NCBI RefSeq assembly: GCF_023718305.1
Contig: NZ_QEYO01000001.1
Location: 434,001 to 498,000, forward strand
Direction of reading: 5' to 3'
DNA length: 64,000 nucleotides
Origin: Gramella sp. AN32
GTDB taxonomy: Bacteria; Bacteroidota; Bacteroidia; Flavobacteriales; Flavobacteriaceae
Part shown: one piece after another, positions 54,392-57,442 of the stretch
How the letters are laid out: every line of letters begins with the position of its first letter
Numbering within the stretch: the first letter of the stretch is position 1
The notes under the pieces: generated by a model
Database searches by the model: none
What the model was told of the DNA's origin: nothing
Seen by the model: only the letters and a program-made list of their open reading frames with translations
Position numbers and translations under genes: made by a program

Positions 54392-54399
54392 TATCTTTG
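54392..54399 (+). promoter_or_regulatory. Putative -7 element (TATCTTTG) of rpsO
   Basis: TATCTTTG followed by C is a textbook Bacteroidota -7 element. It lies 60 bases before the rpsO ATG, leaving a leader of about 50 bases. No clear -33 box. Confidence 0.6.
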
Positions 54400-54451
54400 C
54401 CGCCGGACAGAAAAACTGTCGATACAAGAAAATCATTTAAATAATATTGGA

Positions 54452-54721
54452 ATGTATTTAACAACAGAAAAAAAACAAGAGATCTTCGAAAAACACGGTA
54501 AAGGAAAAAACGATACCGGTTCCGCTGAAGGTCAAATTGCGTTATTCACGCACAGAATCGCTCACCTTTCTGAGCATTTAAAAAGCAATCGTAAAGATTA
54601 CAATTCTGAACGCTCACTGGTGATGCTGGTAGGTAAAAGGAGAAGCCTGCTTGATTATTTAATGAAAAAGGATATTTTAAGATATCGTGCCATCATTAAA
54701 GAATTAGGATTAAGAAAATAA
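54452..54721 (+). CDS. rpsO: 30S ribosomal protein S15
   Basis: An 89-residue ribosomal protein that binds 16S rRNA early in assembly. The sequence KHGKGKNDTGSAEGQIALFT, IAHLSEHLKSNRKDYNSERS and LVGKRRSLLDYL is diagnostic, and the length is standard. It is followed by a terminator and then by pnp, the same rpsO-pnp order as in many bacteria. Confidence 0.98.
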   Translation: MYLTTEKKQEIFEKHGKGKNDTGSAEGQIALFTHRIAHLSEHLKSNRKDYNSERSLVMLVGKRRSLLDYLMKKDILRYRAIIKELGLRK

Positions 54722-57223: not shown

Positions 57224-57250
57224 AGCCCGGCAACTTGCCGGGCTTTTTTT
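57224..57250 (+). terminator. Intrinsic terminator after pnp
   Basis: AGCCCGGCA-ACT-TGCCGGGCT, a perfect 9-bp stem, followed by seven T, 20 bases after the pnp stop. Confidence 0.92.
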
Positions 57251-57336
57251 ATTCTTAAATTTTAAAATCTTACTGAAATTTGCACTTAATTATTGCGACT
57301 ATCCTGAAAATTCTAAAAAAATGGAAAAAATATTTC

Positions 57337-57442
57337 GCGTTAGGGACCTGCCTTGTCGGCAGGCAGGTTGCAACGGAAAGCCCGCAGCTGCTATCGGCAG
57401 CGAGGACTTATAGCGAAAAGCCCGGCACGAAGTGCAACGCCC
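57337..57442 (+). ncRNA. Structured element between pnp and rpoD (candidate Flavo-1-like RNA or REP-type repeat)
   Basis: This GC-rich block stands out in the 336-base AT-rich gap. An outer stem GCGTT (57337-57341) / AACGC (57436-57440) encloses three hairpins: ACCTGCC/GGCAGGT (57346-57352/57362-57368), GCTGC/GCAGC (57387-57391/57397-57401) and GCAC/GTGC (57425-57428/57432-57435). The hairpins are separated by similar linkers, AACGGAAAGCCCG and AGCGAAAAGCCCG. From memory, blocks beginning 'GCGTTAGGGA' with 'AGCGAAAAGCCCG' and ending 'AACGCCC' recur in flavobacterial genomes and may correspond to the Flavo-1 RNA motif; that identity is not verified. The rest of the gap shows only the pnp terminator and AT-rich sequence before rpoD. 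Confidence 0.55.

Follow-up and report, generated by a model that had tools for sequence, protein, structure and literature searches.

A divergent Flavo-1-like element is retained between pnp and a probable main promoter of the primary sigma factor gene rpoD in Gramella

Results

A conserved structured element between pnp and rpoD

The stretch of DNA analysed here, called the window (64,000 nucleotides of Gramella sp. AN32, contig NZ_QEYO01000001.1), carries an old, locus-specific and divergent copy of Flavo-1, fixed in sense orientation between the terminator of pnp and the probable main promoter of rpoD. Comparison with related genomes gives good support to this description and to two further conclusions: purifying selection has preserved the element as a folded single strand across a group of species, and in the species of the window a small dispersed palindrome has been inserted into it. 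Because the element is retained nearly unchanged at the same place in related species, it is suggested to do something for rpoD. The reading that we favour, with about half of our belief, is that of a retained cis element of rpoD acting via RNA.

A first-pass annotation had pointed to a block of 106 bases (57337-57442, forward strand). Its sequence and coordinates were found as given, and its place between the pnp terminator and rpoD was borne out, both genes being confirmed by Pfam. The parts of the region are collected in Table 1. By eye, a terminator-like stem at the end of pnp is common to most of the aligned genomes of the genus.

Table 1. Features between pnp and rpoD, numbered by window position.
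Feature	Positions	Strand	Basis or remark
Intrinsic terminator of pnp	57224..57250	+	AGCCCGGCAACTTGCCGGGCT followed by a T run; read from sequence
Putative promoter P1, ECF-like, TGAAAT...CGACTA, starts 22 nt apart	57274..57301	+	Boxes in 11 of 16 carriers
Divergent Flavo-1-like structured element of the rpoD-locus type, three-way junction with inserted hairpin 1	57337..57442	+
Outer stem, 5' strand GCGTT	57337..57341	+	Pairs with AACGC at 57436-57440
Hairpin 1, inserted palindrome CCTGCCTTGTCGGCAGGCAGG after GGGA	57347..57367	+	Absent from 15 of 15 other orthologs
Main arm, TTGCAACGGAAAGCCC ... GGACTTATAGCGAAAAGCCC paired, G.A-rich internal loops	57368..57423	+	Rfam Flavo-1 pairs and ortholog consensus
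Apical hairpin 2, GCTGC-TATCG-GCAGC	57387..57401	+	Compared with the ortholog alignment
Hairpin 3, GCAC-GAA-GTGC	57425..57435	+	100% of cells paired in orthologs
Putative promoter P2 of rpoD, ECF-like, TGTAAC-N17-CGTATAA	57465..57494	+	23 of 23 genomes of the genus
rpoD, primary sigma factor, 287 aa	57540..58403	+	Pfam; proteins 99-100% identical in 23 genomes of the genus

Folded alone, the block is ordinary. The minimum free energy of its strand was -41.1 kcal/mol (z = -1.27), 22 of 200 shuffled sequences were equally stable, and the opposite strand behaved similarly (z = -1.25). Therefore, the outer stem with three internal hairpins that had been drawn on paper can indeed be drawn, and is a fair drawing, but is no evidence of structure; moreover, its first hairpin is an insertion. 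The palindrome ACCTGCC...GGCAGGT and the two similar GAAA(A)GCCCG stretches are present in the block. The latter had been taken for linkers, which they are not: both in the orthologs and in Flavo-1, the two stretches are paired together as the main arm.

The evidence for structure comes from related genomes. Regions upstream of rpoD were taken from 23 genomes of the genus, a 24th genome having been searched without an rpoD match. Using R1, a model built from the 15 orthologs other than the window copy, the element was found between pnp and rpoD in 16 of the 23 genomes, while nothing was obtained upstream of rpoD at E <= 1 in the remaining seven. Among the 15 orthologs, mean pairwise column identity was 0.87 in the element and 0.89 in P2, as compared to 0.37 in the flank from the terminator to the element and 0.57 in the spacer from the element to P2; a gap facing a letter was counted as a difference, which lowers the flank identity since lengths there are variable. 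Over the 16 carriers, the mean difference was 0.125 at element sites against 0.37 at four-fold degenerate sites of rpoD, with the window's insert left out and multiple changes uncorrected. As judged from these comparisons, the rpoD-locus element is under purifying selection.

The ortholog consensus is a three-way junction in which the outer stem is joined by a long arm, containing internal loops rich in G.A, and by a short hairpin at the end. Covariation in related genomes, which the first-pass annotation had proposed to look for, was present, and the fold went beyond chance in the 15 orthologs: standard pairs filled 97.6% of 375 pair cells, seven cells showed double changes and the covariation score was 0.120 as compared to 0.076 in shuffled alignments, each value being reached by none of 500 shuffles. 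Weaker measures were the number of pairs showing any double change, reached by 6 of 500 shuffles, and the number of further pair types, reached by 102 of 500. In the outer stem, 97.3% of the cells were paired and one G-C to C-G double change was seen; hairpin 3 showed one A-U to G-C double change. Mapped on the rpoD tree, which is weakly supported, the presence of the element requires four changes, and may reflect either a single gain with losses or several gains.

The window copy departs from this consensus in several respects. In the middle 2-bp step one of the pairs is disrupted (CAACGG), and the 5' side of the arm is split by hairpin 1, so that this copy may be less constrained than its orthologs. 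In hairpin 2, T-A and G-C pairs stand where the orthologs have tandem G.A pairs, the alignment reading GC[GA]C-TGNAA-G[GA]GC in the other orthologs.

Hairpin 1 is a nested palindrome

The two alternative pairings proposed for the first hairpin (ACCTGCC with GGCAGGT, or CTGCC with GGCAG) are both possible on the sequence. However, where the window reads GGGA, 21 nt and TTG, the 15 other orthologs read GGGATTG (GGAATTG in G009), and at the rpoD locus hairpin 1 was found only in the window genome. Its palindrome occurs at nine places in this genome and in 4 of the 23 other genomes of the genus; a reversed control gave zero matches. Three of the nine places lie inside Flavo-1 copies, at the same GGGA point, and copies at other loci in G002 and G015 (L081, L083) carry the palindrome at that point as well. 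From this distribution, hairpin 1 is judged to be a small nested repeat outside the ancestral fold at rpoD. The dispersed palindrome follows the pattern CCTGCCT-N-GGCAGGCAGG (57347-57367; L011, L013, L015, L016), some insertions standing after GGGA on one strand and some inside other intergenic repeats.

Relation to Flavo-1

The suggestion of a Flavo-1-type RNA named the right relative, the link being made through the orthologs and not through the window copy, which falls below the Rfam cut-off. Against Flavo-1 (RF01705), the window copy scored 15.4 bits (E = 0.78, alignment 57350-57431), which is not significant by itself and lies under the gathering cut-off of 42 bits; rpoD-type relatives, where listed, scored 27.8-34.4 bits, also under 42. 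The rpoD copies of G022, G005 and G003 matched Flavo-1 at E values of 9e-5, 2.1e-4 and 3.2e-4 per genome, in a search in which 91 candidates were scored per genome, while the other 13 of the 16 carriers had no listed Flavo-1 match at rpoD at E <= 0.001. Because of these three E values, the rpoD locus is taken as homologous to Flavo-1 in spite of its sub-cut-off scores. In addition, the Flavo-1 arm, namely 3 bp, 1x1, 2 bp, 3x3, 2 bp and 3x3 with strand-specific conserved loops, was found in the element.

The rpoD copy is of a distinct type. R1 gave it as the best match in each of the 15 genomes used to build the model (89.1-113.4 bits, partly by construction), with 67.5 bits for the best copy elsewhere in the genus and 56.9 bits for the window copy (57363-57441). 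Upstream of rpoD outside the genus, R1 scored 97.6 bits in G134, 86.8 in G066, 65.6 in G079 and 31.4 in G123, where the copy is degenerate. High scores in two genera outside the model, G134 and G066, as compared to 67.5 bits elsewhere in the genus, argue for a distinct type, which would most simply have been inherited vertically.

The wider Flavo-1 family

Other copies of the family exist, as the first-pass annotation had asked. Flavo-1 is dispersed, 36 complete genomes together yielding at least 277 matches. When named genomes were scanned with a pattern, at least 118 stretches with at least 119 matches were obtained; most of the 80 stretches listed belong to Flavobacteriaceae and relatives of Chryseobacterium, some to Pedobacter and Sphingobacterium, and a few to Bacteroidales. 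Among the 119 matches listed, 115 lie outside ORFs of at least 90 aa (simple ORF caller). In tandem gene contexts, 29 are sense and 32 antisense; divergent regions account for 23 and convergent ones for 14, and for 17 one of the two neighbours was lacking. Copies in antisense are no less intact than those in sense, core pairs being Watson-Crick in 114 of 116 and 103 of 104 cases, respectively, among the matches listed. Therefore, since orientation is random and antisense copies are equally intact, read-through from neighbours is not the general basis of the family.

The fold is conserved in the family too. In an alignment of 38 copies of similar length, chosen from 107 among the matches listed, 96.2% of 798 cells were paired and 169 cells showed double changes as compared to 62.6 in shuffles, a value reached by none of 500; when pairs showing any double change were simply counted, no difference from shuffles was seen (10 and 9.7). 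Helix mismatches in the rpoD orthologs were G.T in 12 cases against A.C in 4. For the 107 copies among the matches listed (12 being unparsable), the apical helices contained 941 Watson-Crick pairs, 16 G.T, 1 A.C and 3 others; the three basal pairs contained 309 Watson-Crick, 4 G.T, 3 A.C and 5 others. The excess of G.T over A.C suggests selection on one folded strand. However, DNA too accommodates G.T better than A.C, so that the excess by itself is not diagnostic of RNA. With respect to replication, 67 copies were co-directional and 52 anti-directional (p = 0.20), a count that covers 119 of the 150 copies listed, of 277, 31 near the origin or terminus being left out, with dnaA taken as origin and genome sizes partly rounded.

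Several other copies also keep their place. In the window genome, a copy (L388, C5:13849-13969) lies between genes identified by Pfam as methionine synthase and methylenetetrahydrofolate reductase. An orthologous sense copy occupies the metH-metF spacer of many genomes of the genus (L349-L364, L366, L367), the apical hairpin being swapped for other palindromes in some species. Before metF, by eye, the copy is in sense right before the start in 18 of 20 loci, G018 and G009 representing other sites. Another fixed copy is antisense to a 6-pyruvoyl-tetrahydropterin-synthase gene with its 3' end abutting the stop (L369, L373, L377, L378, L383, L385, L387), and the S-adenosylmethionine synthetase gene is preceded, at 240-265 nt, by a diverged relative in sense (L372, L381). 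The rpoD copy is therefore one among several retained copies in the genus. In G035, an A run and differing hairpins come after most of the copies (L099-L105), which look as though they stood just beyond the terminators of facing genes; a short membrane-peptide ORF running through them was rejected, its frame not being kept in L101.

Copies and promoters upstream of rpoD

Outside the genus, 89 other genera were examined with one genome each, and eight of them have a Flavo-1-like copy upstream of rpoD: G066, G134, G079, G123, G099, G124, G130 and G074. No single model found all eight, R1 having found G066, G134, G079, G123, G124 and G074, and R3 having found G130, G099, G124, G134, G066 and G079. 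By eye, degenerate remains were also seen in G180 and G182. All copies found upstream of rpoD in the genus and in the eight other genera are in sense. These eight genera represent at most four or five independent lineages, as compared to a rough expectation of 0.5 built on assumed inputs (2.2 copies per Mb, 10% intergenic DNA, 250 bp per region); the Poisson probability of at least four lineages, 0.0016, rests on the same assumptions.

The motif of P2, TGTAAC-N14-20-CGTATAA with at most two substitutions, was found in 89 of 89 other genera as well as in the genus, and started 55-88 nt before the ATG in 88 of the 89; 62 of 1780 shuffled regions matched. Its CGT box fits the sigma-ECF motif SM6 reported for F. 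psychrophilum. P2 is probably the main promoter of rpoD, and lies downstream of the element. For the putative promoter P1, TGAAAT stands 22 nt before CGACTA in the carriers counted in Table 1, TGTAKGG stands 21 nt before CGACTA in 6 of the 7 genomes without the element, and CGACTA itself was seen in 17 of the 23 genomes. The P1 boxes were not seen in 5 of the 16 carriers, nor by eye in G066 and G134. Where the boxes are upstream, in 11 carriers, transcripts from P1 would contain the element in their leader.

The distance from the end of the element to the TGTAAC box of P2 is nearly constant, 20-24 nt in 21 of 24 copies. The 18 copies from the genus, G066 and G134 all fall within 21-24 nt, and the distance is 20, 22 and 22 nt in G099, G130 and G074, respectively, the hairpins of these three being unrelated. 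The outliers are G124 (48 nt), G079 (about 89 nt) and G123 (about 40-53 nt, its end being unclear).

Under the cis-acting RNA reading, transcripts starting at P1, or running on from pnp, would include the element in its folded form, whose three-way junction and G.A-rich arm would set the amount of RNA reaching rpoD or the stability of that RNA. This RNA route would complement P2. Counting against it, 7 of the 23 genomes of the genus do without the element, P1 is not universal and P2 lies downstream. The near-constant distance to P2 fits a role at the DNA level at least as well as a role of the RNA. A folded strand or a bound protein at the upstream edge of the A+T-rich region of P2 might tune this promoter, or might insulate it from pnp, no transcript being needed for either. 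Taking both forms together, we regard such a role as possible but doubtful. It would account for the spacing, kept even by the three copies with unrelated hairpins, and agrees with the presence of P2 in 89 of 89 genera, the dispensability of P1 and the independence of family orientation from genes. In contrast, both the G.T excess and the G.A loops, which are strand-specific, suggest that a single strand is folded, a state seldom available in duplex DNA, and the replication-strand bias among the copies listed is not significant.

An independent small RNA, with the element as its own transcription unit and its position at rpoD incidental, appears distinctly unlikely to us. A strand-specific fold conserved whatever the direction of the neighbours would suit it, as would the grading of Flavo-1 in a passage of Weinberg et al. 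2010 as probably RNA and probably not cis-regulatory (PMC2864571); the Rfam entry is typed 'Gene; sRNA'. In passages of the F. psychrophilum transcriptome study (PMC9723704), several 5' transcribed regions coincide with Flavo-1 matches. Against a small RNA, the matches are there sense or antisense alike and many lie outside transcribed regions (PMC9723704), and the 20-24 nt spacing to P2 would be a coincidence.

Mobility

The block had alternatively been proposed to be a REP-like mobile repeat. The nested palindrome of hairpin 1, present at nine places, and the dispersal of Flavo-1 go in this direction, whereas no Flavo-1 copy turned up near 20 RAYT-type genes and the copy at rpoD is a fixed feature of 16 species. 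RAYT-mobilised REP sequences have a GTAG/GTGG guide tetranucleotide 5' of the hairpin, and IS200/IS605-type single-stranded DNA elements show a lagging-strand bias. No Flavo-1 copy was found within about 1.5 kb of Y1_Tnp genes at 20 loci using RF01705 at E <= 1 and R3, searches that are blind to copies as divergent as that of the window, which R3 missed too. Y1_Tnp itself gave no match in 28 of 39 genomes searched, including G024 and G006, which have 14 and 9 Flavo-1 matches. RAYT mobilisation of Flavo-1 was rejected on the lack of adjacency at the 20 loci, from which divergent copies would escape.

Three further candidates were discarded. The spacing of inverted Flavo-1 copies hinted at a 3-kb transposon with these copies at its ends, but the interval holds housekeeping genes. 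The GCGTTAGG ends brought integron attC sites to consideration, an identity that was rejected as the ends face the wrong way. As for a common neighbour gene acting as mobiliser, clustering of 395 neighbour proteins gave no cluster above three loci and, by eye, no transposase- or reverse transcriptase-like cluster. A passive relic of a mobile repeat without a role at rpoD is disfavoured and very improbable: the dispersal of the family (at least 277 matches in 36 complete genomes), the nested palindromes and the absence from 7 of 23 genomes of the genus would suit it, but the element diverges about a third as much as four-fold sites, shows compensatory changes, shares a locus-specific sequence with genera outside the model and has counterparts upstream of rpoD in 8 of 89 genera.

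Discussion

The interest that the first-pass annotation attached to sigma factor expression is supported by the constraint on the element, its sense orientation and its near-constant distance to P2, which together suggest an action in cis on rpoD. In the open-access literature searched, we found no function for Flavo-1, described in 2010, and no paper linking it with rpoD. A fixed and constrained copy at a near-constant distance from P2 offers one defined locus for testing Flavo-1 function. Besides, rpoD of Flavobacteriaceae is suggested to be driven by ECF-like promoters, which would change the view of sigma factor supply in Bacteroidetes. A bolder proposal, which we consider rather unlikely, is that Flavo-1 differs from ordinary small RNAs: it would be an orientation-independent folded-strand element, brought more than once by Flavobacteriaceae to the side of the ECF-type rpoD promoter, in a single orientation and at a single distance, and would there couple the supply of primary sigma factor to an ECF sigma factor circuit.

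Comparison with known systems places the element as follows. A subclass of Bacteroidetes TnpA_REP/RAYT proteins, 2.6, is described in a passage of PMC6006769 as flanked by 'atypical secondary structures'. Like the REP sequences of this subclass, Flavo-1 is intergenic, palindromic and repeated in Bacteroidetes; unlike them, it has no detectable Y1_Tnp neighbour at the 20 loci. With Flavo-1 proper, the window element shares the order of helices, the internal loops of the main arm, the GCGRAWAGC strands, the multi-copy character and the occurrence in Bacteroidetes. It differs by its sub-cut-off score (15.4 as compared to 42 bits), its fixed position upstream of rpoD and the addition of the outer stem and hairpin 3, forming the three-way junction, of a locus-specific hairpin 2 and of hairpin 1. 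The window also contains an S15-Flavobacteria ribosomal leader (RF03161, 66 bits) at 54392-54454, upstream of the S15 gene at 54452. Like such structured mRNA leaders, the rpoD-locus element precedes a housekeeping gene and has a conserved fold that is strand-specific. Unlike these leaders, it has the probable main promoter of its gene downstream of the fold, and it belongs to a family whose members also lie antisense to genes.
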